A stretch of 33,408 nt of DNA from a virus, in IMG/VR virus record IMGVR_UViG_3300020448_000019, positions 1 through 33,408 of that record, one strand, 5' to 3'. This document shows positions 3,030 to 28,585 of this stretch, one piece after another. Every line of letters begins with the position of its first letter. The first letter of the stretch is position 1. The notes below the pieces were generated by a model. That model saw only the letters and a list, made by a program, of their open reading frames with translations, was not told the DNA's origin and made no database searches. The position numbers and the translations under genes are program-made.

Positions 3030-3218
3030 ATGGATGATAAAGGTTCATATACAGAATATGGATACAGAGGTCTGGAAGAAATAAAAACTCTTCAAGCTGA
3101 AAACGCGCGCTTGAAAAAGGAGATAGAAGAACTAAAACAAAAACAAATAACTATAGCTGAATTGTATCCTGATGGTTACAGTATAGCTTGGAGAGATAAA
3201 GAAGGGCATAAAGAATGA
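3030..3218 (+). CDS. small coiled-coil protein
   Basis: The product has 62 residues. Residues 14-40 form a Leu/Glu/Lys heptad pattern typical of a coiled coil (LEEIKTLQAENARLKKEIEE), followed by a short tail (YPDGYSIAWRDKEGHKE). It has no membrane segment. Its end overlaps the lipase start by four bases (ATGA), so the two are probably translationally coupled. The function is unknown; it may be a partner or chaperone of the lipase. Confidence 0.55.
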   Translation: MDDKGSYTEYGYRGLEEIKTLQAENARLKKEIEELKQKQITIAELYPDGYSIAWRDKEGHKE

Positions 3219-3955
3219 TTGTCAATCTGTCATTTAAGAAAAGATCAGTACTGTTTGCAAAATTAGCAGATATAGCGTATTTAGAGAAACCAGCGGCAAC
3301 AAAGAAAGCAAAAGAGTTAGGGTTTACTACAGTAGAATATTATGATAGAGATGGTGCACAGGCTTACAGATTTATGAATAAAAAAGATCTTGTCATTGCT
3401 TGTAGAGGAACACAACCAAATCAATGGAATGATGTAAAAGCAGATCTGAAAGCAATTCCAGTTATGGCAGAAACAGTAGGAAGAGTTCATAGAGGTTTTA
3501 AAAAAGAAGTAGACGATCTTTGGCCAATGGTAAGAGAAGATCTTTTAAGAAAAGTAAACTTATCGAAGACTGTTTGGTTTACTGGTCATTCACTCGGAGC
3601 GGCGATGGCAACTATAATGGCAAGTAGATGCATGCATGATGAAGAAGTAAATTATCCGGCAGAGCTCTATACGTTTGGATCTCCAAGAGTAGGTTGGAAT
3701 AAGTATTGTAAGAGTCTAGGAGTTGAGCACCATAGGTTTGTTAATAATAACGATATAGTTACTCGAGTTCCTTTATGGATTATGGGTTATAGACACCATG
3801 GTGAGAAAGTATACTTTAATCGTCACGGTAAAGTTTCAAAAGTTACGTTATGGGATAGGCTTATCGGTATGTGGAATGGGATCAAAAGATTAGAGTTTGA
3901 TAATATTTCAGATCACGCTATGCCAGAGTACATAAAAAATTGTGAAAAGATGTAA
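3215..3955 (+). CDS. class 3 lipase (alpha/beta hydrolase)
   Basis: The 246-residue protein carries the nucleophile elbow WFTGHSLGAA with Ser126, the upstream strand VIACRGTQ of the oxyanion region, the conserved TFGSPRVG at 153-160, the acid site NNNDIVTRVP with Asp180, and DHAMPEYI with His234 as the likely base. Together these form the Ser-Asp-His triad of Lipase_3 enzymes, which cleave acyl esters in lipids. No signal peptide is seen, so access to membranes would be from the cytoplasm or after lysis. The gene is coupled to the preceding coiled-coil gene. A phage lipase could aid lysis or envelope remodelling, but that role is inferred. Confidence 0.85.
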   Translation: MIVNLSFKKRSVLFAKLADIAYLEKPAATKKAKELGFTTVEYYDRDGAQAYRFMNKKDLVIACRGTQPNQWNDVKADLKAIPVMAETVGRVHRGFKKEVDDLWPMVREDLLRKVNLSKTVWFTGHSLGAAMATIMASRCMHDEEVNYPAELYTFGSPRVGWNKYCKSLGVEHHRFVNNNDIVTRVPLWIMGYRHHGEKVYFNRHGKVSKVTLWDRLIGMWNGIKRLEFDNISDHAMPEYIKNCEKM

Positions 3956-6450: not shown

Positions 6451-6479
6451 TTTACATTCCTAAAAAACTATGGTAGATT
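6451..6479 (+). promoter_or_regulatory. sigma70-like phage promoter (P2)
   Basis: A -35 box TTTACA with the adjoining TTCC, a 17-base spacer ending in CTATGG, and a -10 box TAGATT (6474-6479) match the other promoters of the set. It lies directly behind a terminator and 35 bases before the start codon at 6514, so it opens a new early unit. Confidence 0.8.
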
Positions 6480-8296: not shown

Positions 8297-8486
8297 TTTA
8301 CTAGAAAGTGTAATTGATGTGGGTAGTGGGTTTTTTCTCGCTATCCTAATACAGATTCTAGTATTTCCTTTATTTGGATTTACACCTACAATAATGGATA
8401 ATATTCAGATAGCATTAATATTCACAGGTGTATCAATGTTAAGATCTGCTCTATGGAGAAGATACTTTAGAAAGGCAAGACAATGA
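8289..8486 (+). CDS. DUF7220-like small membrane protein
   Basis: The 65-residue protein has two hydrophobic segments. The first contains FFLAILIQILVFPLFGFTPT and the second NIQIALIFTGVSMLRSALWR, ending in a basic tail (RRYFRKARQ). The string QxLVFPLFG, then DNxxIxxIFTxVS and LRR, matches the small two-helix family DUF7220 found in many phages and prophages. It should sit in the inner membrane. Its role is unknown. Start and stop overlap the neighbouring genes. Confidence 0.75.
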   Translation: MSDLLESVIDVGSGFFLAILIQILVFPLFGFTPTIMDNIQIALIFTGVSMLRSALWRRYFRKARQ

Positions 8487-8656
8487 ATGAAGAAAATAAA
8501 CCACCTGAAACAATAATCTATGTAGATAATCCAAGAGTGTGGTGTATGGGAGAGCAGATGGATCATCCTAAAGTTTATTATACAGTACCAGAGGGTGGTG
8601 AGGTAGTGTGTGGTTACTGCGATATAAAGTTTAGAATGAAAGAAGAAAATGAGTGA
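8483..8656 (+). CDS. CHCC-type zinc finger protein
   Basis: The 57-residue protein has Cys21, His28, Cys43 and Cys46 in the order RVWCMG, DHPKVYYTV, VVCGYCDIKF. This is the zf-CHCC pattern, which is found in the NDUFS6 subunit of complex I and in small stand-alone bacterial proteins. It should bind one zinc ion. The fold in these proteins is a compact beta structure. A phage copy may come from a proteobacterial host; what it does is not known. It begins at an ATGA overlap and ends eight bases into the next gene. Confidence 0.75.
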   Translation: MNEENKPPETIIYVDNPRVWCMGEQMDHPKVYYTVPEGGEVVCGYCDIKFRMKEENE

Positions 8657-8867: not shown

Positions 8868-9046
8868 TGTTCAAATTAGTTTTTATATTAATGATAATGA
8901 ATGGTTCTGAAGTAGAAGGACAGATAACGTATTCTAGTATGCAGAAGTGTATTTGGTATGCAAAGCAAATCAATATACATGAAGATAGATTAGTCGGTAA
9001 TTATTCAGCATGGTGTAAACCGGTAGCAGTAGAGCAACAAGAATGA
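8867..9046 (+). CDS. exported two-cysteine small protein
   Basis: A 59-residue frame fits between two genes with TAATG and ATGA overlaps. The hydrophobic start (MFKLVFILMIM) is followed by NGSEVEGQITYSSMQKC and, 23 residues after that cysteine, a second one (YSAWCKPV). Length, signal and cysteine spacing resemble the proteins at 8087 and at 20950 (minus strand). A periplasmic protein with one disulphide is likely. The function is unknown. Confidence 0.55.
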   Translation: MFKLVFILMIMNGSEVEGQITYSSMQKCIWYAKQINIHEDRLVGNYSAWCKPVAVEQQE

Positions 9047-9825
9047 AAATAATCGCAGGGCCTTGTCAACATGAATCGTATCCTCAGTCGTTAAAAATAG
9101 CAAAGCACTGCTATGAAGTCTGTCATGACTTAGGAGGTGGAGGTTGGGGTATAGACTACTACTTTAAAGCTTCCTTTGATAAAGCAAATAGAACTAGTTT
9201 AGATAGTCCTCGAGGACAAGGGATAGATGTAACACTACCTGCCTTTATGAACTTAAAAAAAGAAATACCTGGGTTGAAAATATGTACAGACGTTCACACT
9301 GAAGCACATATTAATAGATGCAAAGGTGTTGTTGACATGATACAAATACCTGCGTTTTTATCGAGACAGACTGATTTAATTTTAGCTGCGGCAAAAACAG
9401 ATTGTGTGATAAATATTAAGAAGGGTCAGTTCATGGCTCCATGGGATATAGAAGGGATCATAGGTAAGTTAGGTGAGTCCACAGACTATTGCATTACTGA
9501 ACGAGGTACCAGTTTTGGTTATAACAGGCTGGTTGTCGATTTTGCTGGGATGGATTATATGTTGCGTCGCATCGGGCGTAAACTTGTCTTCGATTCTACG
9601 CATGCCGTTCAGAACCCCGGCGGAGAGGGTAGCCATTCTGGTGGTGATCGTAGGTTGGTTCCTAATCTGGTTCGTGCAGCAGCAGCGATTGGTGTATCCA
9701 ATTTCTTTGTAGAAGTTCATGAAGATCCTGATAACGCGCCGTCCGATGGACCTAATATGATAAGACTAGAAGACTTTGAGCCTTTAATCAGAGATATATG
9801 CTTTGTAAGAAAAATGCTTCACTAG
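9043..9825 (+). CDS. kdsA: 3-deoxy-8-phosphooctulonate (KDO-8-P) synthase, metal-dependent type
   Basis: The 260-residue protein is a clear KdsA: IIAGPCQHES at the N-terminus, KASFDKANRTS at 42-52, DVHTE, IQIPAFLSRQTDL, INIKKGQFMAP, TERGTSFGYNRLVVD, FDSTHAVQ and VHEDPDNAPSDGPN follow in the family order. The enzyme joins phosphoenolpyruvate and arabinose-5-phosphate to give KDO-8-phosphate, the precursor of the inner-core sugar of lipopolysaccharide. Cys8, His187, Glu224 and Asp235 match the metal ligands of the metal-dependent class, where the metal-free E. coli type has Asn instead of Cys. It is a little shorter than host enzymes but appears complete. The segment around 9540-9700 is GC-richer and uses CGT/CGC arginine codons, unlike the rest of the gene. 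The stop codon lies in a terminator loop. Confidence 0.93.
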   Translation: MKIIAGPCQHESYPQSLKIAKHCYEVCHDLGGGGWGIDYYFKASFDKANRTSLDSPRGQGIDVTLPAFMNLKKEIPGLKICTDVHTEAHINRCKGVVDMIQIPAFLSRQTDLILAAAKTDCVINIKKGQFMAPWDIEGIIGKLGESTDYCITERGTSFGYNRLVVDFAGMDYMLRRIGRKLVFDSTHAVQNPGGEGSHSGGDRRLVPNLVRAAAAIGVSNFFVEVHEDPDNAPSDGPNMIRLEDFEPLIRDICFVRKMLH

Positions 9826-9837: not shown

Positions 9838-9866
9838 TTTACATTCCCTGATAACTGTGGTAGTAT
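9838..9866 (+). promoter_or_regulatory. sigma70-like phage promoter (P3)
   Basis: The -35 box TTTACA with adjoining TTCC, a 17-base spacer ending in CTGTGG, and the -10 box TAGTAT (9861-9866) follow the common pattern. It lies behind the kdsA terminator and before the gene at 9888, which has a good AGGAGA site. It should drive the unit up to 14452. Confidence 0.8.
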
Positions 9867-9887
9867 AGTATCAAATAGGAGAATGAT

Positions 9888-10193
9888 ATGGGAATCACAA
9901 TGAACACAAAAGGTATTAATCCAGAAATTAGAAACAGAATACGTCTTGCCGTAGCAGCATATGCTTATGAGTATATAGATGATCCTATCATGTCAGATGC
10001 TGATTTCGATTCATTAGCAAGGTCAATCAGTCCTGAAGAAAAGACTGGAAATCGTAAGCTGGATAATTTCTTCAAAAAACACTTCCAACCTGACACAGGT
10101 ATGTGGATCCATAAACATCCTGAAAAAGATAAGCTTCGTCACATATACGAAACTTACTACAAAAACGATAAATATAGATATACAGGTAAATAA
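9888..10193 (+). CDS. conserved phage protein, unknown function
   Basis: The 101-residue protein starts six bases after AGGAGA; the ATG at 9882 opens only a short frame. It contains IRLAVAAYAYEYIDDPIMSD and DFDSLARSI, a pattern faintly like the first helices of NAD-dependent DNA ligases (Y-x-Y-x-x-x-D-x-x-x-S-D-x-x-[FY]-D), but the ligase domain itself is missing. The C-terminal half contains FKKHFQPDTGMWIHKHPEKD. Similar short genes occur in marine phages. First gene of the P3 unit. Confidence 0.65.
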   Translation: MGITMNTKGINPEIRNRIRLAVAAYAYEYIDDPIMSDADFDSLARSISPEEKTGNRKLDNFFKKHFQPDTGMWIHKHPEKDKLRHIYETYYKNDKYRYTGK

Positions 10194-10194
10194 T

Positions 10195-10563
10195 ATGACA
10201 ATGCATCTTGTTCGCGGAATGTCTAGCCTAAATACTAAAAGGCGAAGACAAAAGAAATCACCTGGTTGGAAGCAAAAACTAGCTGAGCACGATAAGTTTC
10301 TCAGAAAGATGGGCGCACATCCAGATCAGATAAAAGAAAGTAGAAAAAGAAATGCTGATGTGGTTATTCGGAGCATCCCTGATTATAGCGATGATAGGTC
10401 TAGTCTGCGTACTAGTGATGTTATTTGTGGAGGAGGACTGAAAAAAGAAACGAATAAATATACAGGTACAGAAATTATTGGTATAGGTACTATGCATAAG
10501 TCTAACATGGTTCCAGTATCAAGAAAAAAAGATGCCGAGGATATGGCAAAAATGAGGAGATAA
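10195..10563 (+). CDS. conserved phage protein, MHLVRGMSSLNT family
   Basis: The 122-residue basic protein begins with MTMHLVRGMSSLNTKRR and ends with TGTEIIGIGTMHKSNMVPV and MAKMRR. Both end motifs are shared by a small family that is common in phages, where the middle varies in length. It is soluble with many Lys and Arg; a DNA-associated role is possible but not shown. An alternative ATG at 10201 matches the usual family start, while the first ATG has the better ribosome spacing. Confidence 0.7.
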   Translation: MTMHLVRGMSSLNTKRRRQKKSPGWKQKLAEHDKFLRKMGAHPDQIKESRKRNADVVIRSIPDYSDDRSSLRTSDVICGGGLKKETNKYTGTEIIGIGTMHKSNMVPVSRKKDAEDMAKMRR

Positions 10564-10564
10564 G

Positions 10565-10804
10565 ATGTTTTCTATAGAGTTCGATGCTGATCACACTTGC
10601 TCTACTATACTCGATAACGATGGAAGAAAAGAAGATGTACAGTTACTTATAGGTGATGAAGAAGTTTATATGCGTCAGTGGAATGAGAAGAGAAATAAGT
10701 ATGAAGTAATCAACTTTTCACCTATGATGTTTAAAGAACTTATGACATCAATGGACTATCCAGAAGGGTTATATGCTACTAGTAGGGAGTTAGTAAGACA
10801 GTAA
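10565..10804 (+). CDS. conserved small phage protein, unknown function
   Basis: The 79-residue acidic protein begins with FSIEFDADHTCSTILDNDGR, then EEVYMRQWNEKRNKYEVINF, and ends in a helix. It has an all-beta look in its first half. The ribosome site GAGGAGA is strong. I recognise the pattern from marine phage genomes without any function. It sits immediately before the radical SAM gene. Confidence 0.6.
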   Translation: MFSIEFDADHTCSTILDNDGRKEDVQLLIGDEEVYMRQWNEKRNKYEVINFSPMMFKELMTSMDYPEGLYATSRELVRQ

Positions 10805-10805
10805 T

Positions 10806-11741
10806 ATGAGTAAATCCTATGCGGATGCGTACTACAGCAATCAGCTGTGTATGTGGATGGATATATCTACATACTGTAACGCAGGTTGTCCAGAATGTCA
10901 CAGAACAGATATTGTTAACGGTGGTCTAAAAACTATAGACTGGCTTCCACTCATTCAATGGAGACTCAAAGAATTTCAAGAAAGATTTAGTATAGAATTT
11001 ATTAAACATGCTACAAGAAAATGGGAGTTTTGTGGTACATGGGGAGATCCTGTGATGAATAAAGATCTGTACAATATTGTGAAATACATAGTCGAGTCAA
11101 ATCCATCAACATTTATCTCTATAGATACAAATGGAAGTATAAGAGGTGTTAACTGGTGGGAGGATCTAGGTAAACTCTCAGCCGCAACAAAATATTATGG
11201 AGGAGGAACTATCGAAGTAGATTTTGCTGTAGAAGGTATCACACAAGAAATGCATTCTCACTATAGAAGAAAAACTAATCTTCATAAAGTGCTAGCAAAC
11301 ATGAAAGCATTTACAGATAACGGTGGTATTGCCACCGCTTTTGTTGTTATTCATAAGCATAATCAAGATCACCTGCATCAAATAAAAGAAATGTGTGAGC
11401 TTCACGGATGCTCAAGATTTAATTTTGTTGAGTCTAATAGATTTGAGTATCATTCAACCGGAACTACTGGTAGGTTTGAATTTATAGATGAAAAAGGTAA
11501 GAAGCAGGTGTTGCTTCAGGCTGATAGAACATATTCAGTTCCTAAAGAAAACTCTCAGTTTCATGCACCAATTGCAGATCACAAAACTAGAACAGATCAT
11601 AATCCATTACTAGAAGAACACAAAAGAAAAAAGAAAAATAGCTATATGGATATTCAGAGAGCAGTTCAAGCAGCAGCAGCCGAGCTAGATGGAAGTGATG
11701 ATATAGATTCTTTTATCGAAGCTAATGAGGCAGAAGTATGA
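10806..11741 (+). CDS. radical SAM enzyme core
   Basis: The 311-residue protein has the radical SAM cluster motif CNAGCPEC, with Cys24, Cys28 and Cys31 in CxxxCxxC spacing, binding a 4Fe-4S cluster and S-adenosylmethionine. Later segments (KWEFCGTWGDPVMNKD, then FISIDTNGS and VDFAVEGITQEMH) follow the strand order of the barrel, including the GGExP-like position replaced by GTWGDP. The C-terminal tail is polar and helical. No auxiliary-cluster cysteines are present; these lie in the next gene, which overlaps by four bases. The substrate is not evident; peptide or sugar modification is possible. Confidence 0.85.
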   Translation: MSKSYADAYYSNQLCMWMDISTYCNAGCPECHRTDIVNGGLKTIDWLPLIQWRLKEFQERFSIEFIKHATRKWEFCGTWGDPVMNKDLYNIVKYIVESNPSTFISIDTNGSIRGVNWWEDLGKLSAATKYYGGGTIEVDFAVEGITQEMHSHYRRKTNLHKVLANMKAFTDNGGIATAFVVIHKHNQDHLHQIKEMCELHGCSRFNFVESNRFEYHSTGTTGRFEFIDEKGKKQVLLQADRTYSVPKENSQFHAPIADHKTRTDHNPLLEEHKRKKKNSYMDIQRAVQAAAAELDGSDDIDSFIEANEAEV

Positions 11742-12106
11742 AAAAAAGTTACATTAAATGTAGATGGCTAGATATGAATAAAATTCTAGTTAATCCAGAC
11801 GGACAAGTATATCCATGTTGTTATCTTGCAAATAAAGCATATAAGTCAGAACAACTCGGTGTGTTTGGTCCGAACAATCAAGTAGAAGATATGAGTCAAA
11901 AAGGTCAGAACTGGTACTGGAAACCTGGTGATGAGCTTATGCATGAATACAAAAAGAACTATGATGATCTTAATATTAAGAACAAGTCAATGGAGGAGAT
12001 AGTTAATCATGATTGGTATACGAAAACACTTCCAGAATCATGGGAAAAAGAAGAAACTAGGTTTGAAGCTTGCAGAACATTTTGTGAACACTATAAAGAA
12101 GATTAG
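11738..12106 (+). CDS. SPASM-like auxiliary Fe-S domain, partner of the radical SAM protein
   Basis: The 122-residue protein contains ILVNPDGQVYPCCYLANKAY, the typical start of SPASM/twitch domains, with further cysteines at Cys8 (YIKCRW), Cys112 and Cys116 (EACRTFCEH). In most proteins this domain is fused behind a radical SAM barrel and binds auxiliary clusters. Here it is encoded separately, with its ATG overlapping the TGA of the barrel gene and lying in the -1 frame. A run of seven A follows the start, so either a coupled two-subunit enzyme, a frameshift fusion or a sequencing indel must be considered. Confidence 0.75.
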   Translation: MKKSYIKCRWLDMNKILVNPDGQVYPCCYLANKAYKSEQLGVFGPNNQVEDMSQKGQNWYWKPGDELMHEYKKNYDDLNIKNKSMEEIVNHDWYTKTLPESWEKEETRFEACRTFCEHYKED

Positions 12107-12109
12107 ATA

Positions 12110-12316
12110 ATGACATTTGAAATATTTACAATTATATGTTTTATAGCAACTGTTGCTATTGTACCGATATATATGTGGTTACTATACAACATTAAAAATT
12201 CTTGGACGTCAAACTCACATGACACTCAAGGTGGTAGTATGACAATACTTGAAGGAAAAGATCAGCCAAAGGTAACTTGGATAGATCCTATAATTAAAAG
12301 AATGAGGAGGGAATGA
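12110..12316 (+). CDS. small membrane protein
   Basis: The 68-residue protein has one N-terminal hydrophobic helix (IFTIICFIATVAIVPIYMWL) and a polar cytoplasmic or periplasmic part ending in IIKRMRRE. A strong AGGAGG site in its 3' end serves the following gene. No family is recognised. It stands between the radical SAM pair and the flavoprotein gene in the P3 unit. Confidence 0.55.
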   Translation: MTFEIFTIICFIATVAIVPIYMWLLYNIKNSWTSNSHDTQGGSMTILEGKDQPKVTWIDPIIKRMRRE

Positions 12317-12522
12317 TGCCCGGACAGAATTTTATAAACGGCCCACCTAATCCACGTGGAGTAGAAAGAACCACACTAGATGGCAAAATACGCATAGAAG
12401 ATCAAAGTGATTTTTCCATATTAAAAATAATTGGAATCAAATTTTTAGTTGAAGATCCTAAAGCACCATTTGTATGGTTTGCTATCGCTATGTGTGTAAT
12501 ATTTTATGTTGCAGGTTTTTGA
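12313..12522 (+). CDS. small tail-anchored membrane protein
   Basis: The 69-residue protein has a polar N-terminus (PGQNFINGPPNPRGVERTT) and a hydrophobic C-terminal helix (PFVWFAIAMCVIFYVAGF) that could be a tail anchor. Two adjacent ATGs follow AGGAGGGA; the second, at 12316, has the better spacing. Its stop overlaps the next ATG. Function unknown. Confidence 0.55.
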   Translation: MMPGQNFINGPPNPRGVERTTLDGKIRIEDQSDFSILKIIGIKFLVEDPKAPFVWFAIAMCVIFYVAGF

Positions 12523-12674
12523 TGACTGTGAAACAACAAATAAAATTTTTGGAAAAAGAAATTAAAATTGTAAAAGAGAGATGGGAACCTCATACTTCTA
12601 AATCTTACCATAGTATTTGGCTATACCTGACAGACAGAATTAAAGAGTTGAAGAAAAAATTGGATAACGGTTGA
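12522..12674 (+). CDS. small coiled-coil protein
   Basis: The start at 12522 overlaps the previous TGA and gives 50 residues; an upstream start would fall inside the preceding gene. The product is highly charged and helical (QIKFLEKEIKIVKERW and LTDRIKELKKKL). It may form a coiled coil with another small protein of the unit. No function is recognised. Confidence 0.5.
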   Translation: MTVKQQIKFLEKEIKIVKERWEPHTSKSYHSIWLYLTDRIKELKKKLDNG

Positions 12675-12678
12675 CATA

Positions 12679-13377
12679 ATGACAACTTTTATATCCGCTC
12701 CTTTCGGAAACTATCTCAAATTTAAAAACGCCGTAAGTGTTACTGGAACTTGGACGTATAAACCAAGACCAGGACTATTTGGACAGGTCATTAAGACACT
12801 GCGATACACAAGAAATGGTTGGCGTAATAAAATCGGTCTTCGAAATCGTGGAATTGAATATGGAATACAAAAAACCAACTTCAATGAAGTATTAAGTATT
12901 GCAGCAATAGGTCAATATGATTGGATAAATCTGGAATCAATTGTACCAGAAACTCAAAATGTAGAACTTAATATTAGCTGTCCTAACTTAGATGTTCATC
13001 AAGATACTACTGATTTCAAAGGTTTTGATGCATGGCCAACAATTTATAGAAAGTGGTGTATCGTTAAGGTTCCACCAATGGCATCATACTCTTTATTAGA
13101 TAAGATCGTAAAGTTAGGATTTACACAGATTCATGCTAGCAATACTCTACCAACAGATAAGGGTGGATTGAGCGGAGCAATATTACTACCACATACTCGA
13201 AGAATTATTAAGTATCTAAAGAAAGAATATGATCATGTGGAAGTTATTGCTGGTGGCGGAATCAAAGAAGCATGGCATGCTGAATTTTATAAAGACTTAG
13301 GTGCAGATCACGTAAGCATCGGCACCGGTTGTTTTAATCCTCTGAAAACATGGAGAACTGTGAATGATATCGCCTAA
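12679..13377 (+). CDS. dihydroorotate dehydrogenase-like flavoprotein
   Basis: The 232-residue protein has a PyrD-type barrel pattern: AVSVTGTW, GLRNRGIEYG at 53-62, ELNISCPN at 96-103, IVKVPP with Lys130, IHASNT, GGLSG at 162-166, VIAGGGI at 189-195 and GADHVSIGTGCF at 208-219. These positions bind FMN and substrate in dihydroorotate dehydrogenases. The protein is shorter than typical class 1 or class 2 enzymes (about 310-340 residues), so parts of the barrel are trimmed. It may supply pyrimidine synthesis or act on a different substrate. It follows two membrane genes and precedes a glycosyltransferase, overlapping it by 14 bases. Confidence 0.75.
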   Translation: MTTFISAPFGNYLKFKNAVSVTGTWTYKPRPGLFGQVIKTLRYTRNGWRNKIGLRNRGIEYGIQKTNFNEVLSIAAIGQYDWINLESIVPETQNVELNISCPNLDVHQDTTDFKGFDAWPTIYRKWCIVKVPPMASYSLLDKIVKLGFTQIHASNTLPTDKGGLSGAILLPHTRRIIKYLKKEYDHVEVIAGGGIKEAWHAEFYKDLGADHVSIGTGCFNPLKTWRTVNDIA

Positions 13378-14242
13378 AAAGAAAAGAATCATTTTTACGA
13401 TTCACATATCACCTGAAAAGGTATCAAAATATTTTAATACTACAGAATTAAAAATGACTAATCTGGATCTATACGCTAGCACTTTACAAGTAAAACAAAA
13501 AGACTATGCTGAATCCTGTGGCGCGGACTATAGAATATATAAGTTTGGTGACAAGTTTATAGATTTTACTGAAAAGCTCTGGGAACTTAATATATTTGAA
13601 GAATACTATCAATCAATACAACACTACAAGATATACATCTTAGAAGAACTGACCAAAGAGTATGAGGAAGTACTTTACTTAGACTTAGATGTATGGCCTA
13701 ATAAATTTGTAAATATATTTGAAGAGATAGATGTAAGTGACGGAATAGCAATAAGAGGTTTTACAGATGATAAGCCTAAGGATATAGAATCTTTAAAAGA
13801 AGGCTGGCTTCATTACAAACCAATTCCTAGAAGTGTATCAACTAAAACAGCACTTATGAGATCTTTATGTAATGATAGTAAAATTGAATGTACATCAGAT
13901 GTTGTATTTAATACTGCTATTACTCTTGCAAATGAAGAGCATATGAATAAATTAAACTATTTTGGAGAGATAGAAGATACAAGAAATAAAATTAAAAAGT
14001 TAACAAACAATGATAAGTTTTTTGCAGACTACATCTATTGTATGTTTAGATTTAATAATGAATCTGTGTTTTCATATCTCATCTTTAAAAACAAAGTTGA
14101 GTGGCAATCACTAGATGAAAAGTGGCACTGGGTTTCGAATCATAGGAATCCAGATGAGTTATGTCCTGCGAATGTTAACTTAGCTCATATAATTAATAAA
14201 CAGTTCTCTAATATCATAGGACTAAAAGATAAGGAATACTAA
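13364..14242 (+). CDS. glycosyltransferase-like protein (GT-A fold, DxD motif)
   Basis: The 292-residue protein has the helix-strand sequence YKIYILEELTKEYEEVLYLD followed by LDVWPN, with Asp107 and Asp109 as a DxD motif after a hydrophobic strand. This is the usual metal- and nucleotide-sugar site of GT-A enzymes such as the GT8 and GT32 families. The conserved region with ...CTSDVVFNTAITLANEEH could form the acceptor side. No signal or membrane segment is seen. Its target could be host lipopolysaccharide, phage DNA or a virion protein. The presence of kdsA in the neighbouring unit makes surface sugar plausible, but this is inference. Confidence 0.7.
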   Translation: MISPKKKRIIFTIHISPEKVSKYFNTTELKMTNLDLYASTLQVKQKDYAESCGADYRIYKFGDKFIDFTEKLWELNIFEEYYQSIQHYKIYILEELTKEYEEVLYLDLDVWPNKFVNIFEEIDVSDGIAIRGFTDDKPKDIESLKEGWLHYKPIPRSVSTKTALMRSLCNDSKIECTSDVVFNTAITLANEEHMNKLNYFGEIEDTRNKIKKLTNNDKFFADYIYCMFRFNNESVFSYLIFKNKVEWQSLDEKWHWVSNHRNPDELCPANVNLAHIINKQFSNIIGLKDKEY

Positions 14243-14452
14243 ATGTTTGGATTAGATCCTTTAATGTCAACACTAATTTTAACTGGAGCTATATTTTATT
14301 GTGCCTATATGATAGGTCGAGGAGATAAAATAAAAGATCGTGATGAAATTATAAACACAACCATGGTCTATCTTTGTAAGAGTGGTTATGTTAAATGGCG
14401 TTATGATGAAAATGGGGAGATTGAAATGGTTCCCATTAACGAAAACCTGTAA
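14243..14452 (+). CDS. small membrane protein with C-terminal soluble part
   Basis: The 69-residue protein has an N-terminal hydrophobic helix (LMSTLILTGAIFYCAYMIG) and a soluble part (TTMVYLCKSGYVKWRYDENG, then EIEMVPIN) that looks like a small winged or beta unit. Similar short proteins are common in marine phages. Its stop codon falls inside the paired TGTNACA element at 14448, so it closes the P3 unit. Confidence 0.6.
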   Translation: MFGLDPLMSTLILTGAIFYCAYMIGRGDKIKDRDEIINTTMVYLCKSGYVKWRYDENGEIEMVPINENL

Positions 14453-14511: not shown

Positions 14512-14540
14512 TGTACATTCCAGTTTATTTATGGTAGATT
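14512..14540 (+). promoter_or_regulatory. sigma70-like phage promoter (P4)
   Basis: The -35 box TGTACA with adjoining TTCC, the 17-base spacer ending in TTATGG and the -10 box TAGATT (14535-14540) match P2 closely. It lies 32 bases before the start of the ArdC-like gene. Confidence 0.75.
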
Positions 14541-16585: not shown

Positions 16586-16614
16586 TTTACATTACAGTGA
16601 TACTGTGGTATAAT
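16586..16614 (+). promoter_or_regulatory. sigma70-like phage promoter (P5)
   Basis: The -35 box TTTACA, a 17-base spacer ending in CTGTGG, and a perfect -10 box TATAAT (16609-16614) make this the strongest-looking member of the promoter set. It lies 47 bases upstream of gp32. Confidence 0.85.
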
Positions 16615-26103: not shown

Positions 26104-27008
26104 TGATAGATACGTGGAGAACAGATGTAAGTCCAAAGTCTTTGTATTCAGATTATGCTGGAGCTGACACTGTATGGTTTACAGGAAAGGTTATAAGTAA
26201 TAACGATCCTATGAAACTTGGAAGAGTTCAAATAAGAATTTTTGGAATGCATAGTAATGATATAGGTGAAGTACCTACTAACGCTCTTCCGTGGGCGCAG
26301 ACTTTGAACAGCGCTGGAGGTGGAGTATCTGGAATAGGAACATTTAGTTCAATGATTCCTGGTGCGTTTGTTTTTGGTATATTTTTGGATGGAAGACACG
26401 CACAGATTCCTTTTGTCATTGGCTTTAGTGAAACTTTAGAAGGTCCTTCAAATACACAAAAAACAGATCCTACAGCTCCTATACTTCCAGACAGAGATAA
26501 AAACAGAGACCCAATAGATACTCAGACACCGGTTGATATGACAGATGCTTTAGAAGGAGGATCTAACGCTGAAAAAATATTTAACTTCTATACATCAAAT
26601 GGTTTTACTTCTGAACAAGCATCAGGGTTCATAGGTAACTTCTTTGCTGAATCTAACTTAAATCCAGAAGCCTTGAACCCAAATGATTTAGGAAAACCAG
26701 CGTTTGGTCTAGCTCAGTGGAGAGGTGATAGACTAGAAAATCTAAAGAGTTGGTCAGAAGGTAGAGGTTTAGACTATAGAACATTAAAAGCACAGCTGCA
26801 GTTTTCTTTACATGAGTTAAGTGGTACAGAAAGAAATGCAGGTGCAAAGATTAGAAGAGCAGCAACTGCTAGAGAATCTGCATACGTTATGTGTAGGTAT
26901 TATGAGAGACCTTCGTATGAAATAGTAAATGGAAACTACACTAGTCCTTCTCTAAGTTTAAGAATACAAGTATCAAAAGATGCTTATGAAAGGTTTGCAA
27001 GAGCATGA
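26103..27008 (+). CDS. 5: gp5 OB-fold with C-terminal tail lysozyme, no beta-helix
   Basis: Residues 20-115 form the gp5/VgrG OB domain (TVWFTGKVISNNDPMKLGRV and QIRIFGMHS, then PGAFVFGIFLDGRHAQIPFV). After a Pro/Asp-rich linker, residues 150-301 are a Phage_lysozyme2-type domain: IGNFFAESNLNPEALNPNDL with likely catalytic Glu183, then FGLAQWRGDRLENL. T4 gp5 has OB, lysozyme and beta-helix in one 575-residue chain; this chain stops after the lysozyme. The hydrolase would open peptidoglycan during infection. The next gene starts in an ATGA overlap. Confidence 0.88.
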   Translation: MIDTWRTDVSPKSLYSDYAGADTVWFTGKVISNNDPMKLGRVQIRIFGMHSNDIGEVPTNALPWAQTLNSAGGGVSGIGTFSSMIPGAFVFGIFLDGRHAQIPFVIGFSETLEGPSNTQKTDPTAPILPDRDKNRDPIDTQTPVDMTDALEGGSNAEKIFNFYTSNGFTSEQASGFIGNFFAESNLNPEALNPNDLGKPAFGLAQWRGDRLENLKSWSEGRGLDYRTLKAQLQFSLHELSGTERNAGAKIRRAATARESAYVMCRYYERPSYEIVNGNYTSPSLSLRIQVSKDAYERFARA

Positions 27009-28585
27009 CAGAGATTAATAAAGTACCAATTAGTAAAGTTAACAATACTCTAACAAGACTTCCAATAGCCGGCGAGTTCATAAAAGAGATTGAGAAGATG
27101 AACTTTGCTTCTCAACAGTATGCTTCTACGCAAGAGACTCAACTAGGAAAGAAGATTAATCAAGAACAAGGTGGAGTAACTGTTCTTACTCAGTCAGACT
27201 TATATCCAGCTTCCGTTGGTGGTTCATCAGTTCCACCTATTGTACAAGCAGGAGTTGGAATGAAGTCAGATGAACTTCAGAACGGTGGAAAGAAAGAACT
27301 GCAGTATGCTACCGAGATTGGAAAAATGACACACTCTATGGTTACGATAATCGGAAGTGTTACAGGTAATGGTTATATACACTCTAAGATAATGTTAGGA
27401 ACTCCACAAGCTATTAAGAATTCTTATTTTCAGACTGTAGGAAAAGAACCAGATCCTAGTTATGCACCTCAGTTTGCTCCTTCTTCGTTACAAGGTGCAG
27501 CAACTACTGCACTGACATCTATGAGTTCTGCTTCTGATTATTCATCACAGATTGGAAGTGTATCAAATAATGTTATTGAGGCAGTTACTGGTCTTTCACA
27601 AAAAGTAGATTCACTCGTAGGTAATAAGAACTTAGGAGTAACACAAAGAGCAATACTTAAAACAGAAAACTATTTAGATGGATTCTTAAAGAATATATCA
27701 CAAGGAACTCTTACCGAAGAAGAAACAGATAGAGCTACTGATCTGATTATTGCTGGAAATAATAGTCAGGTTATTGACATTGTGCAGGCTGCAGGAAGAA
27801 GAGAAAATAAAGATCTTGGAGATATTTCTGCGCTTGAAAATTCTATTATGAATGTTAATGCTTCTGCGTCAAGTTCTATTACAAATCAATCAAGTTCGTT
27901 TAATAATATGGGTGTATCAAGTAGGAAAACTAAAGACTTAGCTACTATATCTAATAACTGGAATGGTGCAAATACTCCAGCAGAATATACTTTTGAGAGA
28001 GTACATAGTGTCGAAGAGTTAGTAGCAGAACTTAGATCTGTAACAAGACCAATAACAGAAACTATTGTACACTGGACAGCAAACTTTAACGATCAAGGTC
28101 ATATAGGTGCTAGAGAAATACATAACATAGGATTAAGAAGAGGCTTTGCAGGATGTAGTTACCACTACGTTATAAAAAGAAATGGAAACATAGAAAGAGG
28201 ACGGCCAGTAAATATAAAAGGTGCGCATGCTCGAGCAGCAGGCCATAACAATAACAGTATAGGAATATCATTTGTCGCAGGTTATAACTGTCCTACTGGC
28301 ACACCTAATCCAAACAGATACATAAGTGCTGAATCAATTACTCCAGCTCAGTTTGCCGCTTTAGATTCTTATCTAAAAGCTTTCTTTATGGTATATCCAG
28401 GTGGTCAAGTCTTTGGACACCAAGACTTTGACAGTAATAAGCCAGATCCGGGATTTGATGTTGGAACTTATATCAAATCTAGATTTAATAAAGTAAATGT
28501 TTCAAATCCTAATAATGGTCCTATAAGTGAAACTCAGATGGCGAGCATTCTTGCAGAGACAACTCAAGGTGAGACTATAGCATGA
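27005..28585 (+). CDS. tail-associated N-acetylmuramoyl-L-alanine amidase
   Basis: The 526-residue protein has an unassigned N-terminal half (about 1-330), then an Amidase_2 domain: TETIVHWTANFN with His356, SYHYVIKRNG with Tyr386 and Tyr388, GAHARAAGHNNNSIGISFVA, and VFGHQDFDSNKPDPGFD with His472, Lys479 and Asp481. These match the zinc ligands and catalytic residues of T7-lysozyme-type amidases, with Asp in the place of the last ligand. It cuts the bond between muramic acid and the stem peptide. Being encoded between gp5 and the spike gene, with ATGA overlaps at both ends, it is probably part of the baseplate hub rather than an endolysin. Confidence 0.85.
   Translation: MTEINKVPISKVNNTLTRLPIAGEFIKEIEKMNFASQQYASTQETQLGKKINQEQGGVTVLTQSDLYPASVGGSSVPPIVQAGVGMKSDELQNGGKKELQYATEIGKMTHSMVTIIGSVTGNGYIHSKIMLGTPQAIKNSYFQTVGKEPDPSYAPQFAPSSLQGAATTALTSMSSASDYSSQIGSVSNNVIEAVTGLSQKVDSLVGNKNLGVTQRAILKTENYLDGFLKNISQGTLTEEETDRATDLIIAGNNSQVIDIVQAAGRRENKDLGDISALENSIMNVNASASSSITNQSSSFNNMGVSSRKTKDLATISNNWNGANTPAEYTFERVHSVEELVAELRSVTRPITETIVHWTANFNDQGHIGAREIHNIGLRRGFAGCSYHYVIKRNGNIERGRPVNIKGAHARAAGHNNNSIGISFVAGYNCPTGTPNPNRYISAESITPAQFAALDSYLKAFFMVYPGGQVFGHQDFDSNKPDPGFDVGTYIKSRFNKVNVSNPNNGPISETQMASILAETTQGETIA

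Follow-up and report, generated by a model that had tools for sequence, protein, structure and literature searches.

Radical SAM/twitch genes linked to a glycosyltransferase, and a candidate miniature dihydroorotate dehydrogenase, in one gene block of a marine T4-like phage

The described systems closest to the gene block at positions 9838-14452 of the IMG/VR virus record IMGVR_UViG_3300020448_000019 include: (i) the host-recognition clusters of pelagimyophages, which contain GT8 glycosyltransferases (GTs) and radical S-adenosylmethionine (SAM) cassettes (PMC7029224), (ii) a T4-like marine genome that carries 12 radical SAM genes (PMC5332604), (iii) the T4-like Campylobacter phage CP220, in which multiple radical SAM genes accompany genes for sugar transferases, (iv) BlsE, SpeY and BtrN, twitch or related radical SAM enzymes whose substrates are sugars and sugar nucleosides, and (v) the class 1 dihydroorotate dehydrogenases (DHODs; PyrD). 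The record, here called the window (33,408 bases), is a fragment that derives from an uncultured T4-like phage of marine origin. The proteins encoded by its ssb and baseplate wedge genes are nearest those of Phage C48C1 (Kyanoviridae) and of marine T4-like phages, and its gene order 3' of ssb is similar to that of C48C1. The block, which sits upstream of ssb, is a single transcription-unit-sized block in a variable region and is functionally composite. The operon is real but mixes two jobs, those predicted for a GT-linked radical enzyme and for a short enzyme of pyrimidine synthesis.

The Pelagibacter (SAR11) phage Mosig (EXVC030M, MT647606) encodes a GT of the same family as that of the window (27.6% identity; 264 bits with the family profile). 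Close to the Mosig GT are a radical SAM/twitch-like pair and genes for a carbamoyltransferase, a methyltransferase, an epimerase and VrlC. Of the pair, gene 00084 matches the barrel profile of the window family (E 1.4e-17); gene 00085, which overlaps it, has the twitch motif. Unlike the window pair, the Mosig pair is annotated as a molybdenum cofactor enzyme and a hypothetical protein, is very divergent and belongs to a cluster that adjoins VrlC, whereas the window block precedes ssb and includes the predicted PyrD. Similarly to BlsE, SpeY and BtrN, the window encodes a radical SAM barrel, with one predicted auxiliary cluster as in SpeY; these enzymes, however, are single chains, while the barrel and auxiliary domain of the window are separate genes and the similarity is low. 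The CP220 chains are treated as fused and are distant from the window barrel in the tree described below.

The radical SAM/twitch pair and its glycosyltransferase

The conserved core of the block across diverse marine phages is a predicted radical SAM barrel, its twitch partner and a GT-A glycosyltransferase:

10806-11741, + strand: radical SAM barrel subunit (PF04055, E 3.7e-9, 37.4 bits, cut-off 29.5)
11738-12106, + strand: twitch-type auxiliary-cluster subunit (Pfam SPASM PF13186, E 9.3e-7, above cut-off)
13364-14242, + strand: GT-A glycosyltransferase, GT8-like (weak sequence match, predicted fold)

The barrel and twitch genes share an ATGA overlap. The CX3CX2C motif of the barrel (C24, C28 and C31) is invariant across 16 aligned sequences and places the protein in the radical SAM superfamily. 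A full SPASM domain, which holds two auxiliary clusters, has the motif CX9-15GX4C-gap-CX2CX5CX3C-gap-C. The partner instead has the pattern C8-X13-G-X4-C27C28 ... C112-X3-C116, with five cysteines conserved in a 15-sequence alignment. It thus retains the CX9-15GX4C element and a second Cys pair, the four Cys ligands expected of a twitch domain, and the aligned sequences lack both CX2CX5 and the terminal Cys of the SPASM set. The partner is called twitch rather than full SPASM because the five conserved cysteines fit one auxiliary cluster, which is predicted. The SPASM label of the initial annotation holds insofar as the Pfam SPASM profile scores over its cut-off; the Cys pattern is of the twitch type with a single cluster.

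Comparison among phages shows that the barrel and twitch proteins correspond to two halves of one predicted enzyme, which is a single chain in related phages. Most of the relatives (loci numbered with the prefix L) are fragments, fetched in sets via short peptide patterns. Barrel and twitch occur as one chain with the same domain order in L039, L041-L043, L045 and L048, and the twitch domain forms the C-terminus of these fused chains. In a tree built from 38 radical SAM domains, with the placement of Mosig unsure, at least three changes between split and fused states are required, and the fused GT-linked group stands among the split forms. In L036, L038 and L053, the twitch gene is located about 3 kb away from the barrel gene. 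A frameshift or sequencing error as the cause of the split is rejected, since many distinct phages carry the split form. No report of a split or heterodimeric SPASM enzyme was found in open-licence PMC papers, and a search of 84,980 genomes from bacteria and archaea, by two short peptide patterns only, gave no barrel relative. Several radical SAM genes stand in a row at L044:7911-13693, and the 242,646-base record G041 (L068) has seven radical SAM matches.

The GT matches the GT8 profile PF01501 at 17.8 bits (E 0.0027), which is below the cut-off of 24.3, so that membership in GT8 is not assigned. As the profile search of the PDB gave no meaningful match for this protein, the predicted fold was used instead. 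The model (predicted template modelling score 0.87) has GT-A structural matches, the best among solved folds being a xyloside xylosyltransferase, the capsid glycosyltransferase of PBCV-1 and LgtC, and its DLD motif (D107/D109) is invariant. The GT-A assignment of the initial annotation is thus weak by sequence and upheld by predicted fold. The barrel as a single sequence likewise had no meaningful match in the PDB, hence predicted folds were used. The radical SAM profile finds BlsE as its best PDB match by sequence (E 1.2e-4), and the predicted fold of the fused homologue L041 is nearest BlsE, with SkfB, SuiB and anSME also among the closest.

The coupling of GT and radical SAM genes was assessed with loci fetched by a third gene of the block (the 79-aa gene at 10565-10804), which avoids selection by the tested genes and gave 80 loci in 37 clusters. 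A GT is present in 4/5 clusters with the radical SAM gene (one of the four matches, in L170, is weak at 20 bits, and the fifth radical SAM locus ends at a contig end) compared to 0/32 clusters without it (Fisher p 7.6e-5; the clusters share ancestry, so p values here serve as guides only). When loci are anchored on the GT, a radical SAM gene of this family is found within about 6 kb in 27/49 clusters. In other phages, the GT and radical SAM genes adjoin tail-fibre-like, methyltransferase-like and carbamoyltransferase genes, an arrangement in line with the host-recognition cluster of pelagimyophages (PMC7029224). L002 combines tail-fibre-like genes with GTs, a carbamoyltransferase, a 2-oxoglutarate (2OG)-Fe(II) oxygenase and additional radical SAM genes. 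A surface or virion target fits because the core neighbours tail-fibre-like, carbamoyltransferase and methyltransferase-like genes elsewhere, and we infer that the core most likely tailors a sugar of such a target.

The short dihydroorotate dehydrogenase

Between the twitch and GT genes lies an enzyme of a different kind:

12679-13377, + strand: miniature dihydroorotate dehydrogenase (predicted PyrD), 232 aa (PF01180, E 1.6e-10, 41.2 bits, cut-off 27)

The protein is identified as a dihydroorotate dehydrogenase by PF01180 together with its active-site residues. Like class 1 PyrD enzymes (1EP1 of class 1B, with which it aligned best, and class 1A), it retains ELNISCPN with the catalytic Cys (class 1-type), the conserved Lys of VKxPP, NT...GGLSG and IAGGGI. 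Unlike these enzymes (about 310 aa), it is trimmed at the N-terminus and in loops. It is a divergent short form, with a best score of 55.8 bits against the NCBIfam PyrD equivalog cut-off of 269.

The short DHOD is most simply read as a miniature PyrD with predicted activity in the synthesis of uridine monophosphate (UMP). A genome scan found it at 49% identity in Ca. Actinomarina, where the gene order of locus L074 is a phosphoribosyltransferase (PRTase) gene, pyrB, an amidohydrolase gene in the pyrC position, carA, carB, pyrF and then the short DHOD gene, which overlaps a short PRTase-like gene. Placement in a pyrimidine operon is thus seen in the host homologue and not in the window; no PyrK is found beside the short DHOD in L074. 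Among 42 genomes of the Actinomarina family, a DHO_dh match is present in 25, it is always this short gene, and a second match is found in none. In phages, pyrF is near the short DHOD gene in L011, L015, L020 and L021, and a short PRTase-like gene is near it in L009, L010 and L028. Immediately 3' of the pyrimidine operon of Actinomarina, the gene at L074:9013-9894 matches the helical domain of 5-hydroxymethyldeoxyuridine (5-hmdU) DNA kinases (PF18723, E 1.4e-18).

The short DHOD does not belong to the radical SAM/GT unit. It is excluded because it is found in >20 phage contigs without the radical SAM pair beside it and because the host context makes it a PyrD. When 16 such records were searched whole, 13 had no radical SAM profile match and 3 had distant matches only. 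The two types of gene also separate in long records: L007 (146,609 bases) has the DHOD and no radical SAM or GT match, and L002 (146,556 bases) has the pair and the GT and no DHOD. The initial annotation had proposed that the genes of the block act together, perhaps on a component of the envelope or virion, and had named gene-order comparison across phages as a check. The proposal stands for the radical SAM, twitch and GT genes, which form a conserved neighbourhood; the DHOD occurs independently, and the membrane proteins described below also stand apart. No report of a DHOD as an auxiliary gene of marine phages was found in open-licence PMC papers.

Promoter-like elements and neighbouring genes

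All genes named in the initial annotation are open frames where it placed them, with the radical SAM, SPASM-type and DHOD-like assignments confirmed by Pfam. Three small open reading frames (ORFs) within 9838-14452 (9888-10193, 10195-10563 and 10565-10804) are absent from its list. The remaining features of the block and its borders are:

9043-9825, + strand: kdsA, 3-deoxy-8-phosphooctulonate (KDO-8-P) synthase (NCBIfam NF003543, 312.8 bits, cut-off 242)
9840-9863, + strand: P3, bipartite promoter-like element TACATTCC-N10-TGGTAG (exact copy)
9888-10193, + strand: 101-aa protein resembling the N-terminal NAD-binding domain of DNA ligase (PF22745, E 3.8e-11)
10195-10563, + strand: phage protein phrog_27048 (PHROG, E 5.8e-17)
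10565-10804, + strand: 79-aa ordinary phage protein (IMG/VR loci)
12110-12316, + strand: 68-aa protein with an N-terminal hydrophobic stretch (ORF, locus comparison)
12313-12522, + strand: 69-aa protein with a C-terminal hydrophobic stretch (ORF, locus comparison)
12522-12674, + strand: 50-aa charged protein, probably helical (ORF, locus comparison)
14243-14452, + strand: 69-aa membrane protein (syntenic 3' of the GT in L003, L036 and L053)
14514-14537, + strand: P4, identical bipartite promoter-like element that begins the next unit (exact copy)

The promoter-like element occurs as exact copies at window positions 6453, 9840 and 14514 and as a copy with 2 mismatches at 16588, and four copies were reached in 0/100 shuffles. 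The boundaries at P3 and P4 proposed in the initial annotation are thereby sustained. A version of the pattern with a 12-base spacer has no match, the spacing being 10. A P4-type element is also found 3' of the GT in L003, a variant occurs in L031, and the element is present in a few fetched loci.

The three genes at 9888-10804 are ordinary phage genes. Many phages that lack the radical SAM gene encode the phrog_27048 protein, and the radical SAM gene is absent from 71 of the 80 IMG/VR loci listed for the 79-aa gene. The 79-aa protein was considered as a peptide substrate and rejected, as a radical SAM gene adjoins only a minority of its relatives. The stand-alone protein that resembles the DNA-ligase N-terminal domain (9888-10193) is retained in several relatives.

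The small membrane proteins are passengers restricted to particular lineages, with putative roles. The 68-aa protein travels with the DHOD gene in L003, L004, L005 and L007, and the only other occurrence of the protein at 12313-12522 is in the near-identical L003. The initial annotation suggested that the small membrane proteins are anchors or substrates; they are unlikely to be required as either because the twitch gene runs directly into the GT gene in L031 and L033, where the two overlap with no DHOD, membrane-protein or 50-aa gene between them. A substrate role is thus weakened by the close relatives themselves.

The kdsA gene is full-length and lies just upstream of P3, outside the span 9838-14452. 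It is also present in L006 and L029/L030, with about 55 bp between it and the downstream unit in L029. KdsA has been reported from a marine virus, alongside other surface-sugar genes (PMC5332604).

The window also encodes three neighbouring tRNAs at 1208-1447 (Arg-tct, Tyr-gta and Gly-tcc), a class 3 lipase at 3215-3955 (PF01764, E 2.6e-24) with relatives in L008, L030, L036, L038 and L053, and, within the baseplate gene region, a protein with an Amidase_2 domain (PF01510) at 27005-28585. A 57-aa zf-CHCC zinc-finger protein is encoded at 8483-8656, and its relatives are near the DHOD gene in L004, L005 and L015.

Competing explanations and biological meaning

The explanation we favour, and regard as moderately probable, is a split radical SAM/twitch enzyme coupled to the GT, plus a separate PyrD cassette. 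The barrel and twitch proteins would assemble as a heterodimer in which the barrel cleaves SAM, while the twitch cluster may serve in electron transfer or substrate binding. The enzyme would then oxidise, epimerise or dehydrate a sugar or sugar-bearing substrate, and the GT would transfer the modified sugar to a protein of the virion or a glycan of the host surface. The kdsA gene, located 5' of P3 and near the block in L029, would fit the supply of surface sugars. The short DHOD, probably a cassette acquired between twitch and GT, would act as a working PyrD that leads through UMP to phage nucleotide synthesis, a role with strong support from gene context rather than from an assay.

Several observations weigh against this explanation. 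GTs of this family are common among marine phages, and 22/49 of the GT-anchored clusters have no radical SAM neighbour. The fold matches are remote (template modelling scores of about 0.4-0.5), which leaves room for a peptide or nucleic-acid substrate, and the peptide-modifying SkfB and SuiB rank directly behind BlsE by fold. The twitch profile did not score Mosig 00085, which was assigned by motif and position. With respect to the DHOD, 17/42 genomes of the Actinomarina family are without any, possibly from incompleteness, and the close relatives of the window have the DHOD together with the radical SAM gene (2/5 clusters vs 0/32, p 0.015), which may point to some link; in the same clusters, kdsA is likewise present only where the radical SAM gene is.

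If the substrate is instead a peptide or protein, the split enzyme may modify a small phage or host peptide, similarly to the enzymes of ribosomally synthesized and post-translationally modified peptides (RiPPs), or a virion protein side chain, prior to glycosylation by the GT. The presence of SkfB, SuiB and anSME among the closest folds, the small ORFs that adjoin the pair, and the protein glycosyltransferases among the closest folds of the GT speak for this route, which nonetheless appears unlikely: many phages that lack the enzyme encode the adjacent 79-aa protein, L031 and L033 have neither of the two membrane proteins between twitch and GT, and the family scans that were run recognised no peptidase or leader-binding domain beside the pair. 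A single envelope or virion modification pathway that includes the DHOD and membrane proteins, as in the initial annotation, is improbable. Such a pathway agrees with the promoter-bounded block and its overlaps, and with the position of the DHOD gene, which in L029 comes directly 3' of the pair and in L006 precedes it, but the DHOD is widespread without the pair, the pair occurs without the DHOD, and host context assigns the DHOD to PyrD. We give an equally small chance to hypermodification of nucleic acids or nucleotides, in which the DHOD, a BlsE-like radical SAM enzyme and the GT would together produce an altered pyrimidine destined for phage DNA. In its favour, the closest match in both sequence and fold is the cytosylglucuronate decarboxylase BlsE, and the DHOD belongs to pyrimidine synthesis; however, the genes are found apart, many GT/radical SAM clusters adjoin tail-fibre-like rather than replication genes, and the scanned part of the window revealed no gene dedicated to base modification. 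Least probable, and very much so, is that a hypervariable region gathered unrelated accessory genes by chance: the DHOD, kdsA and membrane-protein genes do come and go, but the coupling of radical SAM and GT genes recurs in diverse phages.

If the radical SAM enzyme is of two subunits, it would be a useful natural experiment on the role of the auxiliary cluster, and Mosig, an isolated SAR11 phage whose pair is recognised by motif and position, may offer a cultured system. It is conceivable, and put forward only tentatively, that marine phages have a two-protein class of radical SAM enzymes with a free auxiliary-cluster subunit and a dedicated GT, which would yield a radical-modified sugar absent from their hosts. 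The short DHOD, if a true miniature PyrD, is unusually small and is the sole DHOD found in a family of streamlined marine actinobacteria; it would also be a pyrimidine-synthesis gene borne by many marine phages.

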